In this document: positions 1 through 22,213 of the stretch, in pieces
Position numbering within the stretch: position 1 is the stretch's first letter
How the letters are laid out: the number at the start of each line of letters is the position of its first letter
NCBI GenBank assembly: GCA_023150835.1
Contig: JAKLKB010000118.1
Coordinates: 1-22,213, forward strand
Length of the DNA: 22,213 nt
Direction: 5' to 3'
From: Myxococcota bacterium
Lineage (GTDB): Bacteria; Myxococcota_C; UBA6777
The notes under the pieces: model-generated
Databases searched by the model: none
Told to the model about the DNA's origin: nothing
What the model saw: only the letters and a program-made list of their open reading frames with translations
Translations under genes and position numbers: made by a program

Positions 1-223
1 GGACTGCCCCTACATGGTTCGACCACATAACGGGCGGATCTCGGATTAGTTTGTGTAAACGCCCGATGGTCGGGCAGCCACAGGGGACTGCCCCTACATG
101 GTTCGACCACATAACGGGCGGATCTCGGATTAGTTTGTGTAAACGCCCGATGGTCGGGCAGCCACAGGGGGCTGCCCCTACATGGCCCGATCACATAACG
201 GGCGGATCTCGGATTAGCTTGTG
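1..223. repeat. 84-bp tandem REP-like array, about 2.65 copies
   Basis: Copies start at 1, 85 and 169. The first two are identical over all 84 bases; the third diverges slightly and stops inside the yqeY gene. Each full unit carries a perfect hairpin GCCCGA-tgg-TCGGGC and a second pairing AGGGG-actg-CCCCT, the make-up of intergenic palindromic (REP-like) DNA. The first unit begins at the window edge, so the array probably extends to the left. The unit includes the TTA that is the yqeY stop codon in the third copy, so the duplicated segment reaches about ten bases into the coding end of that gene. Confidence 0.9.
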
Positions 224-660
224 AGCATCGAGTCGACGAGAGGCTTGATATCTTTGGAGGGGTAGCGGCCTTTCAGCTTGGGCATGATCTCTTTCATGAC
301 CTTGCCGACATCTTTGGCAGTCGAAGCACCGAGGGCGGCGATGGCGTCTTGGACGATGGTACGGGCTTCTTCGGGGCTGAGTTGTTGGGGAAGATAGCCT
401 TCGATGATCTTGAGTTCGGCTTTTTCCTTGTCAGCAAGGTCCACGCGTCCCGCTTGGGAGAAGGCGTCGATGCTTTCTTGTCGGCGCTTGGCTTGTTTGG
501 AAAGAAAAGCGAGGGTTTCTTCTTCGTTGTGCTCGCGTTTGAGGTCGATTTGCTCTTTTTTGAGGTCGGCCAGCATCATCTTGAGCGTGGAGGTGCGCTC
601 GGCGTCACGGGCTTTCATCGAGGTTTTGAGGTCTTCGGAGATTTTAGCGAGCAGAGACAT
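214..660 (-). CDS. yqeY: GatB/YqeY domain protein
   Basis: A 148-residue protein of the stand-alone GatB/YqeY family, the usual length for it. It resembles the C-terminal helical tail of GatB, the tRNA-dependent amidotransferase subunit, and is thought to touch tRNA; its exact role is unsettled. Visible family features are the N-terminal DLKTSMKARD..RTSTLKMMLADLKK helix, the LPQQLSPEEA segment and the C-terminal GKVMKEIMPKLKGRYPSKDI block. The ATG at 658-660 is preceded by AGAAGGA nine bases upstream, which fixes the start. It is the last gene of a probable batD > bamD-like > yqeY run, 168 bases after the bamD-like stop. The 84-bp repeat unit begins within its last codons, so the final residues may have been altered by repeat expansion. 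Cytoplasmic, complete. Confidence 0.93.
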   Translation of the reverse strand: MSLLAKISEDLKTSMKARDAERTSTLKMMLADLKKEQIDLKREHNEEETLAFLSKQAKRRQESIDAFSQAGRVDLADKEKAELKIIEGYLPQQLSPEEARTIVQDAIAALGASTAKDVGKVMKEIMPKLKGRYPSKDIKPLVDSMLTS

Positions 661-1975: not shown

Positions 1976-3799
1976 TCAGCGAGGACGAGGAGAGGGGGCT
2001 TCTTCGGGCAAGCGAGGAACCAGCGAAGAGAGATGATGCAGGATATGAGAAGCGGCATCGGGGCAAGGCCAAGGGGCAAAGCGCGCAAGATCGCATTGTT
2101 GGAGCAAAGGCTGGAGATCTTGGTGGAGCGTTTGTCCAAGGGGATCGCGCAGAAGAGAGGCTTGGAGTTCGTCGCGTGTGAGCGCACGTGTTGGGCGCAA
2201 CAACAGCGCTTGTAAGAGTTCGTGAAAAGTGGCCTCGATCCGCGACAATCCTTGCGGATCTGCGGGCAGTTTTCGTGTAGTCGCCCACTCGACAAGCAGG
2301 TTTTTGGCGTGGAGGTAGTGGTCGTGTTGTTGTTGGCGCTGTGCCTCCAACGCGGCCCGCACAAAACGCTCTCGCTGAAAGCGCCGCCATTGGGCGATCA
2401 GCACAACGCCCACGACCACCACACAAAAAAACAGCAACACCCACAGCGGATGCCTCTGCGAAAACAGCGGATGTTCGGGCTTCTTGCCAAAGGCCGCAGA
2501 GGACGGCTTGATCAAGGCCGAGACTTGGGCGCGCAAGGCAGGTTGAATCGACAGCGACTGCGGTGTTGTGGCGTAACGCACATACACCTTTTTCCAAGGA
2601 TCAAAAGCCCACCAGATCAGCGCAGGGATGGTGTAATCGCCGGACTTTTCGGCGCGCAACCACAGCGAGCGCACGATCTCTCCTTGGATCTGCGCGGCTT
2701 GTGGAGACAGTGAGACTTCTGTTCGTGCGGATATCTGGCGCAGTTGAGAAGAAAGAGAAAGCGAAGGTAGATTGATCTGCTTGAGGTTTCCGATACCTTG
2801 GAGTCGGATCTGAAGGGGGATACTTTGTCCAACGCGATACGGCGTCGAGGGCAAGGCGAGCGAAAGGTGAAAGCGCCCGACATCTTGCGATTGAAGCTGT
2901 GGAGGCTTTTCTTCCGATGGATGGGGCAGGATCGAAACAGTTTGTTCGGGGCTGCGTCGGATCTCTTCGCTGCTTGGGTCGCCGTTCATTTGGGGATTAA
3001 TCCGCAACGCAAGCGAATCGAGCGACAACTCCCCATCCCGCAGAGCAAACAGCGCATAACGCGAAACCAAGGTGTAGGCGTATTCTTTGTCGCCAAGGTG
3101 TCGATGTTTCCACGTCGCAAGCGCACGCGCACGAAAGATCTCTTCGACCCAAAAGCCCTCAAATCGGGGAAGTTGCGCATACGCGACGCTGCATGTCCCC
3201 CGCCGAAAAAAATAAAACGAGACGGTGATCTGTTGACCGACATAAGCGCGTTGCGGAGAGATCACAGGCAACAAAAAGAAATCGCCGCTCGGCTCGATCT
3301 GTGCGGGAAGATCGAGTTGAGGGCCGCTTGGCGCACGATCAATCGCGGCTTTGACTTCGATGCGCAAGGGCGGGGTTGTGTAGCGTTTGCCCTTGACGCG
3401 CACAGTGGCAGCGCGTAGTGTATGCGCCCCATCGCGTAGAGCGAGATAAGACACCGTAAAGATCCAAGTATATCGGGTGCTTGGATCTTTGCCTGCACGA
3501 TATATGGCATCTTGCCGATCTTGCTGTTCGGTCTTTTTTCGGCGCAAAGCGCGATGGCTCGGGAATTGAAGCCCCGAATAATACCGTGTGTCCGTCTCCA
3601 AAGTCCACCGCACGACGGCCATCTCGCCTCGCGAGACCACTCCGCGCACCACTTCCGCACGAAAGCTCGTCGCGGTTTCTGCTGCGGCTGTCTGTGCGTA
3701 CCAACCCACACAAGAACCCAGCACCCACAACCCGAGAGCCACACGCAAACCAACACCAGAAAAGAATGTCCGATTGTTTCGATTTGTTTGAAAGATCAT
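1976..3799 (-). CDS. batD: BatD-family protein (oxygen tolerance)
   Basis: A 607-residue envelope protein of the BatD family, which in Bacteroides-type bat operons acts with BatA/BatB von Willebrand proteins and MoxR ATPases in an ill-defined stress-tolerance complex. It has an N-terminal signal peptide with hydrophobic core VALGLWVLGSCVGWYA and a Q-T-AAA-E cleavage region. A BatD core follows, with the diagnostic YVGQQITVSFYFF and FEGFWVEEIF motifs and later beta-sandwich repeats (RVGQSIPLQIRL). A membrane helix (LWVLLFFCVVVVGVVLIAQW) precedes a cytosolic helical tail ending PSPRPR. The start is uncertain: the ATG at 3799 is used here, but a GTG at 3835 in the same frame has GAGGA three bases upstream. 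No batA, batB or moxR gene lies in the window. It heads the run toward the bamD-like gene; dispersed element copy A is directly upstream. Confidence 0.87.
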   Translation of the reverse strand: MIFQTNRNNRTFFSGVGLRVALGLWVLGSCVGWYAQTAAAETATSFRAEVVRGVVSRGEMAVVRWTLETDTRYYSGLQFPSHRALRRKKTEQQDRQDAIYRAGKDPSTRYTWIFTVSYLALRDGAHTLRAATVRVKGKRYTTPPLRIEVKAAIDRAPSGPQLDLPAQIEPSGDFFLLPVISPQRAYVGQQITVSFYFFRRGTCSVAYAQLPRFEGFWVEEIFRARALATWKHRHLGDKEYAYTLVSRYALFALRDGELSLDSLALRINPQMNGDPSSEEIRRSPEQTVSILPHPSEEKPPQLQSQDVGRFHLSLALPSTPYRVGQSIPLQIRLQGIGNLKQINLPSLSLSSQLRQISARTEVSLSPQAAQIQGEIVRSLWLRAEKSGDYTIPALIWWAFDPWKKVYVRYATTPQSLSIQPALRAQVSALIKPSSAAFGKKPEHPLFSQRHPLWVLLFFCVVVVGVVLIAQWRRFQRERFVRAALEAQRQQQHDHYLHAKNLLVEWATTRKLPADPQGLSRIEATFHELLQALLLRPTRALTRDELQASLLRDPLGQTLHQDLQPLLQQCDLARFAPWPCPDAASHILHHLSSLVPRLPEEAPSPRPR

Positions 3800-3840
3800 C
3801 AAATGCTCTGTCCGTCGTGTGAAGAAAGGTAACACAGATC

Positions 3841-3968
3841 CTCAAACCCCCCGTGTTCGAAGCCGTTCAAGCGGAGCAGTCGTTGGTTTGGAAAACAACG
3901 ACTGCTCCGCCAATACGGGGTCAAGGGGGCCGTGACCCCTTGTGGGGCGTGGGGTGAAACCCCACCAC
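3841..3968 (-). repeat. Dispersed three-hairpin element, copy A
   Basis: One of three full copies of a ~120-bp intergenic element (others at 6436-6556 and 18961-19078). In the order shared by all copies it has a long hairpin bounded by CCCCGTGTT..G and its complement, a CAAGGGG..CCCCTTG stem, and a GTGGGG..CCCCAC stem. In this copy the long hairpin has a perfect 15-bp stem, GCGGAGCAGTCGTTG at 3871-3885 against its complement at 3896-3910, around a 10-base loop. It occupies the gap between the divergent batD and NYN genes. Confidence 0.85.
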
Positions 3969-4129
3969 AGCGAGTTCCATTCGTCGTATCATACTCATCG
4001 AGGTGTCCGAACATTCGCTCACCGCAGCCTTCGTTGTATCACAATGCCGCAAATAGCGGTCAAGTTTCCTATGCCCACGACCCCTCAAGCAAGAGGGTCC
4101 ACGATCCCGCAAGATGCTAAGGAGAAAAA
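3969..4129 (+). promoter_or_regulatory. Leader of the NYN gene
   Basis: This is the rest of the 330-base gap between batD and the NYN gene; I see no gene in it. A GACCCCTC..GAGGGTC hairpin with one bulged base lies at about 4078-4099, and a strong Shine-Dalgarno TAAGGAG at 4118-4124 sits five bases before the ATG at 4130. TATCAT near 3989 could be a -10 box, but no convincing -35 accompanies it. Confidence 0.45.
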
Positions 4130-4945
4130 ATGACACGTGTGGGTGTTTTTGTTGATGTCGAAAATATTAATCGCACAGGTGGTTTTGGGATGCGCTACGA
4201 TATCTTGCGCCGATTCGCTTGCCGCGACGCTGCGGATCCTGTGCGATTGAACGCTTATGTCGCGTTTGATGAAGAACGCGCCCAAAGCGACCGCCCTTAC
4301 AAAAAGCGCGTTTTGGATTTTTACCTTGTGTTGCGGGATCTCGGCTACAAAGTGATCGAAAAGAAAGTCAAGTGGTTCAACGAACGCGGCACACGCTACG
4401 CAAAGGCCAACGTCGATCTGGATCTGGCCGTCGATGCGCTGCTTCAGTCCGAAGCGCTCGATCGGGTGTTGTTGGTGACAGGCGACGGAGACTTCGATCG
4501 GGTGGTGCGCGCCCTCCAAAACAAGGGCTGTCGTGTCGAAGTCGTGGCCTTTCGCAATGTGTCGCTTTCTCTGCGGCGTGAGGCCGACTTCTTTATGTCA
4601 GGTTATTTGATCCCCAACCTCTTACCGATCGACCGCGAACGAGCTTCGCCTGCCTCGTGGGGCGAAGCAGAATCTCGCGTTCGAGGCACTTGTTACTCGT
4701 TCAAAGAAAATTTTGGCTTTATGCGTTTTCTCGATCGCATCGGCTCCGATATCTGGATCACCGACTCACGCGACCAAGCCTCTCCCTACCAAACAGCTTT
4801 TGTTCATATCTCCGACTTTCCCCCCGGCTTCGATCCGTTTCTTCTTCCAAGCCGCGACTTTATTTTTGAATTCGACATCGTCCATTCCGAACGTGACGAA
4901 GGAAAACTTCAAGCCAAGAATGTCGAGCTGCTCTACCAGTATTAA
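4130..4945 (+). CDS. NYN-domain (LabA/DUF88) putative RNase fused to a cold-shock-like domain
   Basis: A 271-residue cytoplasmic protein. Residues 1-165 are a NYN domain, a PIN-like metal-dependent RNase fold of the LabA/DUF88 type. Its acidic site is present: FVDVEN with D9 and N12, DVDLDLAVDAL with D96/D98/D102, and TGDGDFD with D119/D121. Residues about 184-268 look like an OB-fold cold-shock-type RNA-binding domain: GTCYSFKENFGFMRF resembles RNP1, AFVHISDF resembles RNP2, followed by FEFDIVHSERDEGKLQAKNV. The likely role is RNA cleavage or RNA turnover with its own RNA-binding module; the target is unknown. The start has an excellent Shine-Dalgarno. It converges on kamA, and the two stop codons overlap in TTAA at 4942-4945. 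The NYN call is firm, the cold-shock call a little less so. Confidence 0.9.
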   Translation: MTRVGVFVDVENINRTGGFGMRYDILRRFACRDAADPVRLNAYVAFDEERAQSDRPYKKRVLDFYLVLRDLGYKVIEKKVKWFNERGTRYAKANVDLDLAVDALLQSEALDRVLLVTGDGDFDRVVRALQNKGCRVEVVAFRNVSLSLRREADFFMSGYLIPNLLPIDRERASPASWGEAESRVRGTCYSFKENFGFMRFLDRIGSDIWITDSRDQASPYQTAFVHISDFPPGFDPFLLPSRDFIFEFDIVHSERDEGKLQAKNVELLYQY

Positions 4946-5040
4946 GCGTTTCCGCTTCTGCCTTTCGGCGCTCTGCCAGTATCGGTCTTTTCAGCGTTTC
5001 CGTTCCTGCCTTTTGGCGCTCCGCCAGTATCGGGCTTTTG
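4931..5040. repeat. 48-bp tandem duplication at the NYN/kamA 3' ends
   Basis: Two 48-bp copies start at 4945 and 4993. The NYN gene end (CTCTACCAGTAT at 4931) matches the CTCTGCCAGTAT segment inside the unit, minus eight bases, so a third degenerate copy overlaps the last NYN codons. On the minus strand the unit is translated as a 16-residue repeat (core TDTGRAPKGRSGNA) that forms the C-terminus of KamA. Confidence 0.85.
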
Positions 5041-6324
5041 AGGAACCAACGGGCGGGTATCCAACCCCGCAAGCTGATCTGCCACTCCGCCACGCATCCG
5101 CCCACCGATCCCCGCCCGCTTGCCTTGTTCACCTTCAGCTTCCTGTGCGTTCGCTCCAACCATCGAAGCCGCCGAGATACGCGGTTCTGGATACGTGACG
5201 ATCCGCCCTTCAAAGTTGCGTAGCACCGTATACTCGGGAGACATACTCAAGATGTAGTTCGGCAAGATCGGGACTTTGCCACCGCCACGAGGAAGATCGA
5301 TCACATACTGCGGAATCCCCAAACCGCCCAACCGACCACGCAAGGCTTCCATGATCTGAATTCCTCGTGAGATCGGCGTGCGCAGATGCTCGATCCCTTG
5401 GACAAGATCGCTTTGGTGGAGATAGTACGGCTTGATCCGATTCATCAGCAGCTTGCGACACAACGCTTCGAGGATATCGGGATGATCGTTGATCCCACGC
5501 AACAAGACCGATTGGTTGTTGACGGGGACACCCGCCCGCAACAGACGATCACAAGCCTGTGCCGCTTGCGGCGTCAGTTCGCGTGGGTGGTTAAAATGCG
5601 TGACGACCCAGATCGGATGATAGCGTTCCAACATCGCGCAAAACTCGGGCGTGATCCGCATCGGCATCAACACAGGGATGCGCGTTCCGATACGGATGAT
5701 CTCAACGCTTGGAACCGACCGAACTGCCGCGATCACGCGCTCAAGCCGCCCGTCCGACAGCGTCAACGGATCTCCCCCCGACAAGATCACATCTCGAACA
5801 CTCGGCGTCTCCCGCAAATAACGCACCCACCCCTCGATCTGCTCGCTGCTTGCGGCTGCTTTCTCGATACCCACAAAACGCTTGCGTGTACAATGCCGAC
5901 AATACACAGGGCATAGACCATTCATCAACAGCACCACCCGATCAGGATAACGGTGGATCAATCCCGCAACAGGCCGATGTTCTTCTTCTTCCTCCGCAAG
6001 CGGATCACGAAACAACGCTGGTGCGTCATCTTCTTCTTCGGCCAACGGAATCGCCATCCGAAAGATCGGATCTTCGGGCGTAAATGACTCGATCAGCGAA
6101 AGATAATACGGCGTCACCGCAAAAGGATAACGCATCGAAACGCGCAACTGCCCATCCGATGGTTCAAATCCTTTCACCAACGCCTGAAGCTCCGACAGCG
6201 ATGTCAACCGATGTGTCATCTGCCAACGCCAGTCTGCGCGCTGCCAATCCCCCTCCCGCTTCAAAAGCCCCAACACTCCGCCTGTTTCTTCGACCCACTC
6301 AACACGTTGCACGACCCGCGACAT
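4942..6324 (-). CDS. kamA: L-lysine 2,3-aminomutase (radical SAM)
   Basis: A 460-residue radical SAM, PLP-dependent enzyme that converts L-lysine to beta-lysine in the cytoplasm, used for beta-lysine osmolytes or lysine fermentation. The SAM cluster motif CPVYCRHC gives C138/C142/C145. The PLP lysine is K350 in DLPRGGGKVP, and the substrate-amine aspartates are D306 (SDLVQG) and D343. These lysine-binding acids favour KamA over other family members. The C-terminal domain VLRNFEGRIVTYPEP is present. The ATG at 6324 has AGAGGA close upstream; longer in-frame starts would read through repeat element B. Oddities are an acidic insertion (AEEEDD...AEEEEE, residues 95-115) and about 75 residues of low-complexity tail that ends in a 16-residue tandem repeat. 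The typical family length is about 416-470. No acetyltransferase or fermentation partner gene is adjacent. Confidence 0.92.
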   Translation of the reverse strand: MSRVVQRVEWVEETGGVLGLLKREGDWQRADWRWQMTHRLTSLSELQALVKGFEPSDGQLRVSMRYPFAVTPYYLSLIESFTPEDPIFRMAIPLAEEEDDAPALFRDPLAEEEEEHRPVAGLIHRYPDRVVLLMNGLCPVYCRHCTRKRFVGIEKAAASSEQIEGWVRYLRETPSVRDVILSGGDPLTLSDGRLERVIAAVRSVPSVEIIRIGTRIPVLMPMRITPEFCAMLERYHPIWVVTHFNHPRELTPQAAQACDRLLRAGVPVNNQSVLLRGINDHPDILEALCRKLLMNRIKPYYLHQSDLVQGIEHLRTPISRGIQIMEALRGRLGGLGIPQYVIDLPRGGGKVPILPNYILSMSPEYTVLRNFEGRIVTYPEPRISAASMVGANAQEAEGEQGKRAGIGGRMRGGVADQLAGLDTRPLVPQKPDTGGAPKGRNGNAEKTDTGRAPKGRSGNA

Positions 6325-20230: not shown

Positions 20231-21517
20231 CTACTCTTCGCGGGGGTAACTGCGTTCTAACCAAGAAAGCGCGGACGCCTCATCACAGATCTCCCCCGTC
20301 AGTTGCGCATCTTCGAGCGCCAAAAGCATCTCCTTAAAGCGTGGGCCTGAGCGATACCCCAACCGCTTGAGCGCGTTGCCATCGAGAAGACGCGGAGGCG
20401 AAAGAGCTTGCTCATCCCACAACGAAAGTTGCTCTTGTGCCAAGACGATGGGCGCTTCAGGAAAGCCCTCGGCCTTCACCAAGATCCGCGCAATCCCAAG
20501 GATCTTCTGTATCAACGGGCGTCTCAAAAAGCGCTTTTGCTCTGCGATGCCCATCTCTCTGAGGCTCGGGAGCAGGCGAACCCCCGCCAAAAGATCCAGC
20601 GTTTCGCGGATCTCTGGGTTAGAAAAACGCAGATGACGCAGCCCTTGTTCTGCTCGATCCAACGGCTCGTGCGACAGCAACGTCGCCAAAGCCATCGAGA
20701 TATCCCGATACGCCGATTCTTCGAAGGCTTGAAAACGCAACAATCGCAGCGGATCCGACGACGTATTCGGCAAGATGTGGGCAAACAACCCTGTCTCTTC
20801 AAGCAAGCGCACTGCCAAGCAAGGATACAAGCCCGTCAACATCCTCGTGAGTTCTTGCTGGATGCGCTCCACGCTCACCTCGACGATACGATGCGCCATC
20901 GATTGGATCGCCTCAAACGTCGCTTGATCCATCGTAAAATTCAAACGCCCCACAAAACGGATCGCTCGCAACATCCGCAGCCGATCCTCGGAAAATCGTG
21001 CGTACGGATCGCCGATCGTGCGCAAGCGCTTTCGGTCCAAATCCTCGATCCCACCGACGTAATCTAACACCTCCTCCGCGATCGGGTCGTACAACAAACC
21101 ATTGATCGTAAAGTCCCGCCGCTTCACATCTTCGCGAACATCCACACCATCAAACGTCACCTCTGTAGGACGACGCCCATCTTCATAACGCCCTTCTGAT
21201 CGAAAGGTGGTCACTTCAAACGTCAGCCCATGACGCACCACCATGATCGTGCCGAATTCTCGGCCCACGTCCGCCGTATGATAATGTGGCTTGCGAAACC
21301 AAGCCTCGGTCTCTTCGGGTTTTGCGCTGGTCGCAACATCGTAATCTTTGGGCGGCTCTCCCAACAACATATCGCGAATCGATCCCCCCACAAGATAAGC
21401 CGCAAATCCCGCCCTTCGTAAGATCGAGACGATCTGTGCTGCCTCTTCAAACAATGCACCTTTCGGCACACCCAACCACCGACGTATCGGCTCTCCAAGC
21501 AACGCGCTCTCTACCAT
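20231..21517 (-). CDS. cca: CCA tRNA nucleotidyltransferase / poly(A) polymerase (class II)
   Basis: A 428-residue cytoplasmic class II nucleotidyltransferase that adds CCA, or in some members poly(A), to RNA 3' ends. The head domain shows YLVGGSIRDMLLGEPPKDYDVAT (GG44-45, R48D49, catalytic D58/D60) and the GTIMVVRHGLTFEVTTFRSEGRYEDGRRP stretch. RRDFTING (133-140) and EDRLRMLRAIRF (177-188) complete the active site. The helical body and tail follow without an HD phosphohydrolase domain. The GTI-type loop after DVGREF and the lack of an obvious PAP-specific signature favour CCA addition, but this is not decisive. The ATG at 21517 has GGAGGAG about eight bases upstream; the longer in-frame ORF to 21610 runs into a repeat. 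No encoded CCA end can be checked because the window has no tRNA. Confidence 0.92.
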   Translation of the reverse strand: MVESALLGEPIRRWLGVPKGALFEEAAQIVSILRRAGFAAYLVGGSIRDMLLGEPPKDYDVATSAKPEETEAWFRKPHYHTADVGREFGTIMVVRHGLTFEVTTFRSEGRYEDGRRPTEVTFDGVDVREDVKRRDFTINGLLYDPIAEEVLDYVGGIEDLDRKRLRTIGDPYARFSEDRLRMLRAIRFVGRLNFTMDQATFEAIQSMAHRIVEVSVERIQQELTRMLTGLYPCLAVRLLEETGLFAHILPNTSSDPLRLLRFQAFEESAYRDISMALATLLSHEPLDRAEQGLRHLRFSNPEIRETLDLLAGVRLLPSLREMGIAEQKRFLRRPLIQKILGIARILVKAEGFPEAPIVLAQEQLSLWDEQALSPPRLLDGNALKRLGYRSGPRFKEMLLALEDAQLTGEICDEASALSWLERSYPREE

Positions 21518-21580
21518 CCAAACACTCCTCCCATGCAACAAACCACGACACAAATTCCACCAAACCGGCTCGTTAAAAAT

Positions 21581-21640
21581 CCCCGTGTTCGCAGACTGCT
21601 CAAACAGCACCGTTGTTCATTTGAAAAACGGGCGTTGCCT
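21581..21640 (-). repeat. Partial copy (D) of the dispersed element
   Basis: CCCCGTGTTCGCAG followed by TCAA-C-G, then GTTGTTCATTTGAAAAAC, lines up with the first half of copy A read in the same direction (CCCCGTGTTCGAAG, TCAAGCGG, TCGTTGGTTTGGAAAAC). The closing arm and the other two hairpins are missing. It sits upstream of the cca gene. Confidence 0.5.
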
Positions 21641-21647
21641 TCAAACC

Positions 21648-21661
21648 CCCGATGGTTCGGG
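21648..21661. other. Hairpin 3' of the FGE-fold remnant
   Basis: CCCGA-tggt-TCGGG, a 5-bp stem with a 4-base loop, 36 bases past the stop codon of the remnant at 21698-21838. Diversity-generating retroelements need a short hairpin just downstream of the variable repeat, and the spacing would be loosely compatible. A closely similar hairpin (GCCCGA-tgg-TCGGGC) is in the 84-bp array at 1-168, so a REP-type origin is equally possible. Confidence 0.45.
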
Positions 21662-21668
21662 CCGCAAA

Positions 21669-21691
21669 CGGTAAAACGGTAAAACGGTAAA
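21669..21691. repeat. 8-bp microrepeat, three copies
   Basis: CGGTAAAA is repeated at 21669, 21677 and 21685 (the last truncated by one base), between the stop of the FGE-fold remnant and the hairpin. Confidence 0.85.
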
Positions 21692-21697
21692 CCGCAA

Positions 21698-21838
21698 CTA
21701 GGGGCTCGATCTGACGACACGGAAACCGATGCCGAGGTAGCGGTCCGTCAGCGTGTAGTGGTAACGCCGCGCCGCCCGCACATTGCCGACGTTGTCGTAC
21801 CAACAGCCACCCCGCCGCACGCCCTTTCCCCACATCAT
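21698..21838 (-). pseudogene. C-terminal remnant of an FGE-sulfatase (SUMF1/C-type-lectin-fold) protein, DGR-target-like
   Basis: Forty-six codons (first ATG at 21838, preceded in frame by TGA) encode the typical end of an FGE-sulfatase domain: VRRGGCWYDNVGN, RAARRYHYT, then DRYLGIGFRVVRSSP. The complete domain is over 200 residues, so the 5' part is missing. The neighbouring minus-strand frames upstream do not continue it. The RGGxW...RAAxR...R...IGFR frame is the one used by many variable proteins of diversity-generating retroelements. Positions commonly Asn (AAC) in template copies are here TAC GAC AAC (14-16), TAC CAC TAC (26-28) and GAC, TAC, CTC, GGC (32, 34-36). That is the pattern left by substitution at adenines. 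No reverse transcriptase or template repeat is in the window, so the retroelement link is an inference. The FGE family call is firm. Confidence 0.75.
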
Positions 21839-21844
21839 TCACAG

Positions 21845-22025
21845 ACCAATATCGCAAAGGCAAGACGCCGCCGATGCTCTCGTCCGACTCGCCGACCTCT
21901 GGAAAAACAATTGGAAAGAGGCCGAAGGCCGCTCCAAGATCACCCTCGACATGATACAACGCGCCGCCACCGATGGCGCTCGCTTCCTCGCTCACCTCGA
22001 CAAACAACCCACACAACTTCAATAA
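21845..22025 (+). pseudogene. 5'-truncated gene end, unknown family
   Basis: An open frame ends in TAA at 22023-22025. Its last ~55 codons (from RQDAADALVRLADLWKNNW through RAATDGARFLAHLDKQ) have the C-ending codon bias of the real plus-strand genes nearby and a helical, charged composition. There is no start codon with a ribosome binding site, and 5' of about 21845 the frame runs antisense through the FGE-fold remnant. It therefore looks like the 3' end of a gene cut at a junction. I do not recognise the family. A short real gene with a non-ATG start cannot be excluded. Confidence 0.4.
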
Positions 22026-22096
22026 GCCGCTCTAATGCGCCAAAAAGCATGGAGCTTCCTCGACCTAGCCCTCACTAACATCAGTTCAAAACATCG

Positions 22097-22213
22097 TCCC
22101 GTCGTTGTCAAAACAACCGTTTTCGATTCAAAAAACCCTCCCGTCGTTGTCAAAACAACCGTTTTCGATTCAAAAAACCCTCCCGTCGTTGTCAAAACAA
22201 CCGTTTTCGATTC
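22097..22213. repeat. 42-bp tandem array running off the window
   Basis: Copies start at 22097, 22139 and 22181; the third is cut by the window end, and copies are identical where they overlap. The unit begins TCCCGTCGTTGTCAAAACAA and contains GTTGT-caaa-ACAAC, a small hairpin. All three plus-strand frames are open through the unit. One, starting at ATG 22035, reads PVVVKTTVFDSKNP per 14-residue unit, but it has no clear ribosome binding site. Confidence 0.9.

Follow-up and report, generated by a model that had tools for sequence, protein, structure and literature searches.

A diversity-generating retroelement variable repeat in the apparently severed 3′ end of an FGE-fold gene, with its template and damaged reverse transcriptases on other contigs

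The diversity-generating retroelement (DGR) of Treponema denticola includes HRDC as a known accessory, and both remote targets and leftover ones that lack a core are known from it (PMC4891356). In Thiohalocapsa PB-PSB1, several DGR loci share one large genome, and these include degenerate loci and remote targets (PMC10907252). The DGR of Bordetella phage BPP-1 combines a template repeat (TR) and variable repeat (VR) pair with adenine mutagenesis, Avd and a conserved VR 3′ end, and needs a stem-loop close to the VR, with an 8-bp stem and a GRNA loop (PMC3240598).

Judged from sequence, the system described here appears closest to the T. denticola DGR and, for its scattered and partly broken loci, to that of Thiohalocapsa PB-PSB1. 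It shares with the former (TvpA, PDB 2y3c) the HRDC accessory and targets of the FGE/C-type-lectin fold; among solved structures, the FGE domain matches this T. denticola variable protein best (2y3c, E = 2e-37). It differs in having a second core with Avd, a Ser/Thr kinase on at least two of its targets (contigs C118 and C221) and damage to both reverse transcriptases (RTs), and in belonging to another, sparsely sampled phylum. The Thiohalocapsa loci likewise have kinase or CLec/FGE domains among their targets, but in that genome every class includes one complete locus, and reads revealed activity, whereas no complete locus was found here. The features of BPP-1 listed above recur, except that the target of BPP-1 is a phage tail protein diversified in cis and that the hairpin found here has a 5-bp stem, lies 50 nt from the VR and is not a general feature. 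These findings place a multi-target DGR whose targets include kinase-FGE sensor genes in a phylum represented by five genomes in the collection searched.

The window, that is, the whole stretch of DNA analyzed, is one complete contig (C58) of 22,213 bp. It belongs to a 7.56-Mb assembly of 239 contigs that is estimated to be 93% complete. Its relevant features are as follows.

20231 to 21610, minus strand: neighboring gene (open reading frame), which from our own reading of the sequence we take to be tRNA nucleotidyltransferase/poly(A) polymerase-like; 97% identical over 258 bp to contig C440 of the congener G001, where its 5′ part identifies the orthologous locus.
21648 to 21661, minus strand: hairpin CCCGA-ACCA-TCGGG with a 5-bp stem, starting 50 nt after the end of the VR.
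21666 to 21691, no strand assigned: 8-bp tandem repeat (AAACGGTA, 3.2 copies) in a 3′ tail common to the sibling genes, from repeat analysis and sibling comparison.
21698 to 21838, minus strand: 46-residue open reading frame (ORF) that contains the VR, the predicted C-terminal end of an FGE-fold target protein, from its sequence and a weak PF03781 match.
21712 to 21822, minus strand: DGR variable repeat of 111 bp, pairing with positions 10–120 of template TR2 on contig C185.
21822 to 21823, no strand assigned: putative deletion junction with no bases shared at the join, from match boundaries and sequences.
21823 to 22075, plus strand: stretch that recurs upstream of sibling FGE genes on C221 and C211, and also on C97 and C3, at 93–97% identity over parts.
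22085 to 22213, no strand assigned: 42-bp tandem array in which the contig ends; the array beside the same element on C3 is related to it.

The ORF at 21838–21698 (minus strand) translates as MMWGKGVRRGGCWYDNVGNVRAARRYHYTLTDRYLGIGFRVVRSSP, followed by a TAG stop codon at 21698–21700. It aligns with positions 215–255 of the PF03781 profile, the C-terminal end (E = 0.009); because the fragment is so short, its score lies under the family cut-off. A second stop codon stands immediately 5′ of the ATG, and there is therefore no in-frame remainder of the FGE domain. The initial annotation had described here the residue frame of an FGE-fold DGR target, NNC codons at the usual variable positions and a short hairpin, all of which are present on the minus strand.

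A DNA search of the genome with 21648–21900 gave 16 matches, one of which, on C185, is a template rather than a target. This template, TR2, is 120 bp long (C185:9754–9873, minus strand) and starts a few bases past the end of an RT reading frame that terminates in RRYLRYMDDMLLFG...RRSLLGIEKG. It retains the VR reading frame and has asparagine (AAC) codons at every variable position. The window VR, from which the first 9 bp are absent, is 80% identical to TR2. Nearly all mismatches had been expected at template adenines; over the 111 bp, 18 of 33 adenines are changed, compared with 4 of the 78 remaining positions (Fisher p = 1.6e-8). The NNC codons that the initial annotation had named sit exactly at the AAC codons of TR2, which have become TAC, GAC, AAC / GGC, AAT / TAC, CAC, TAC / GAC / TAC, CTC, GGC in the window. 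The VR and the exact AAC positions of an unseen template had thus been correctly inferred from one raw sequence. We put the probability at roughly 95% that 21712–21822 (minus strand) is a DGR VR left at the cut-off 3′ end of a gene for an FGE-fold target, diversified from a TR2-type template and later truncated. One of the four non-adenine mismatches, T to G in a CGT codon, is common to several siblings, and the window VR may therefore have been written from a template slightly unlike TR2. The genome's other template, TR1, was rejected as the source: of its mismatches in 100 bp, 16 are at adenines and 19 elsewhere, compared with 18 and 4 for TR2.

The same bias was seen in the sibling VRs. Mismatches to TR2, given as adenine/other, number 20/0 (C221b), 13/1 (C221a), 14/2 (C118), 21/6 (C9), 23/8 (C211), 15/6 (C99) and 19/14 (C13), with 14/9, counted by alignment, for C120. 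In the congener G001 they are 19/0 (C293), 25/2 (C515) and 16/5 (C440). As a control, the gene bodies were compared over the 100–320 bp that immediately precede the VRs, and they had no adenine excess (p = 0.27–0.98), which suggests that the change is confined to the VR and leaves the rest of the gene unaffected. The siblings match both PF03781 and 2y3c, so that the VR encodes the C-terminal portion of a C-type-lectin/FGE-fold protein. VRs paired with TR1 have counts of 23/3 (C182) and 19/7 (C204). Between the two templates themselves, only 3 of 35 adenines differ, compared with 17 of the 78 remaining bases; templates thus retain their adenines, and targets lose them.

The initial annotation had also called for a genome search for a template, a DGR-type RT and Avd; a template repeat, RT pieces and Avd were found, together with an HRDC domain. 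Beside TR2 on C185 lies the C-terminal part of a DGR-type RT (RT2, with the motif YMDD), with the HRDC domain upstream of it (PF00570, E = 5e-18). A second core, on C63 (12542–14055, minus strand), comprises Avd, an RT (RT1, with the motif IGNLTSQ), TR1 and then an FGE gene. Its Avd scores 86.9 bits against NF033474 (cut-off 80) and also passes PF22296. Both RT pieces lie directly upstream of their templates and align with RTs of many phyla, in which relatives occur at 41–54% identity; these properties point to DGR-type enzymes. In template, VR-limited change, fold, RT and accessory, the system appears to possess the defining DGR features that were tested, current activity aside.

Both RTs are damaged. 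Alignment with intact relatives shows a gap of about 8 residues in RT1, between LDHAAKE and CMDD, where the frame also shifts. RT2 has lost its N-terminal part and starts shortly before RYMDD. Both lesions fall within about 15 codons before the catalytic YMDD motif (C63/L054 12660–13100; L048 6880–7260). Searching the genome by query returned no intact DGR RT, nor any DGR RT besides these two, and at the thresholds applied the phylum's four other genomes yielded none either. Current activity is doubtful because both RTs are damaged just before YMDD. The DGR system is probably decaying, with templates and targets surviving and the RTs apparently broken; a sequencing error or an unassembled intact copy would be a less simple reading.

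The earlier proposal was that the gene end "was, or is" a DGR target. The past tense fits better, the copy being a severed remnant. A VR that is still live would need an intact RT, unassembled or in other cells, or lesions that are sequencing errors, so that rewriting in trans continues. Several VRs (C221b and, in G001, C293 and C515) are nearly perfect at non-adenine positions, which suggests recent action, and the completeness estimate of 93% is compatible with a missed gene. In Thiohalocapsa PB-PSB1, moreover, incomplete loci were diversified in trans, and strain variants have intact RTs (PMC10907252). On the other hand, both RTs are broken in this assembly, the TR2 locus of the congener keeps its template and has lost the RT and nearly all of HRDC, and the window VR is without both its first 9 bp and its gene. 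We consider a live target unlikely.

What was lost from the window copy can be judged from its siblings. On C221, a Ser/Thr kinase domain (PF00069, E = 1.5e-48) is followed by the FGE domain (PF03781), and the VR closes the gene, beyond a frameshift. The C118 gene has the same kinase-FGE architecture (88.6% over 560 aligned positions) and looks like an intact target. The window copy lacks all target-gene sequence 5′ of the VR and keeps the VR, the stop codon and the 3′ tail. It appears to be a relic, the severed 3′ end of a sensor-type target gene; that gene probably once had an N-terminal Ser/Thr kinase like its siblings, and what remains would have lost the capacity to make a working protein.

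At 21822/21823 the VR, on the left, meets DNA whose other copies precede kinase-FGE genes; its identity to C221, C211 and C97 is 94–97%. This right-hand stretch (21823–22075) includes the end of an ORF at 21783–22025. On C221 the two joined points are about 1.9 kb apart, and the window copy would fit a deletion that began in the upstream region and took the first nine bases of the VR with it. A smaller deletion has removed the kinase from the C211 sibling. A second severed VR end, with part of the VR lost, was observed on C3 (piece C3:11000–24000, about 5850–5925, plus strand). It adjoins a related 42-bp array and the element that abuts the VR in the window. The window's own array (22085–22213) is the probable cause of the assembly break.

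The proximity of that break invites another explanation, in which the junction is an assembly chimera and the full gene stands at this locus. The contig does end only 260–390 bp further on, within the tandem array, and both of the joined pieces recur in the genome. However, deletions are common in such genes (the kinase of C211, the middle of the congener copy and the truncated VR end on C3), and the join has no shared bases, whereas mis-assembly usually occurs inside shared sequence. We regard a chimera as improbable, and less credible than continued rewriting of the VR. Two further proposals are more speculative and seem to us far-fetched. In one, the two RT remnants, of which one extends to shortly before YMDD and the other begins there, would be complementary parts of a split RT acting in trans. 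In the other, the severed VRs of the window and C3 would form a silent archive that still exchanges sequence with the intact kinase-FGE sensors. Least tenable is the reading of the ORF as an ordinary FGE-family paralogue end that reflects normal divergence at the surface of the C-type lectin fold, without any retroelement: PF03781 (FGE-sulfatase) has 50 matches in the genome, only about a dozen of them related to TR1 or TR2, and it is on this surface that paralogues with the fold vary, but the mismatch count and the template beside an RT refute it, since surface selection is not limited to template adenines (20/0 in C221b, 19/0 in C293 of G001 and 18/4 in the window), the gene bodies are free of bias, and template, RT, Avd and HRDC are present.

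The reading that we favor, diversification from a TR2-type template followed by truncation, would proceed as follows. Error-prone reverse transcription would read adenines in the RNA of a TR2-type template as random bases, and the mutated cDNA would replace the VR, presumably by homing. Because template and enzyme are on other contigs, this would have taken place in trans. A later deletion of about 1.9 kb would then have removed the gene start, the kinase and most of the FGE domain, leaving the VR, the stop codon and the 3′ tail. The homing mechanism, the action in trans and this order of events are the parts of the scheme that we infer.

The corresponding locus of the congener allows DGR action to be compared with ordinary divergence. 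On C440 of G001, the 3′ tail and VR again come after the neighboring gene; the orthology of the two loci rests on this shared flank. The congener copy retains the kinase (92.5% over 255 amino acids), despite damage to the middle of the gene. Between the two VRs, 23 of 33 template-adenine positions are different, compared with 9 of the 78 others (p = 2e-9). Outside the VR, the differences amount to 8 in 258 (3%) in the coding flank and 6 in 67 in the 3′ tail. This pattern suggests that adenine-specific diversification continued after the species split, unless one VR was later replaced from a paralogue. On C506 of G001 (about 380–561), the TR2 locus runs from the first HRDC codons straight into the template, with the RT absent; this template is without three bases.

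The hairpin had been advanced as the kind that DGR homing requires. The structure is real, but its match to characterized homing hairpins did not hold up. Those of phage type have a stem of 7–10 bp and a GRNA loop, 4–34 bp from the VR (PMC3240598), whereas the stem here is 5 bp, the loop is ACCA and the distance is 50 nt. The stem is kept in four other copies in the genome, with ACAA or TTTA loops, and several targets have no hairpin. We therefore downgraded it as evidence of homing, as it is unlike the characterized type and missing from several targets.

Two other RTs in the genome were not accepted as DGR enzymes: that on C183 is only 30% identical to the query, and that on C85 was not recovered by the RT query. 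On both contigs, template matches consist of short, chance-level pieces. The C183 enzyme (2476–5118, plus strand) is an ORF of about 880–904 residues that begins with an RT domain (YADD) and continues into a long additional C-terminal region. That of C85 (4035–6200, minus strand) is a 721-residue ORF with two tandem RT domains, whose motifs are not DGR-like. The left end of the contig (window positions 1–224) resembles the right end in being a repeat array, here with a translated unit in about three copies.
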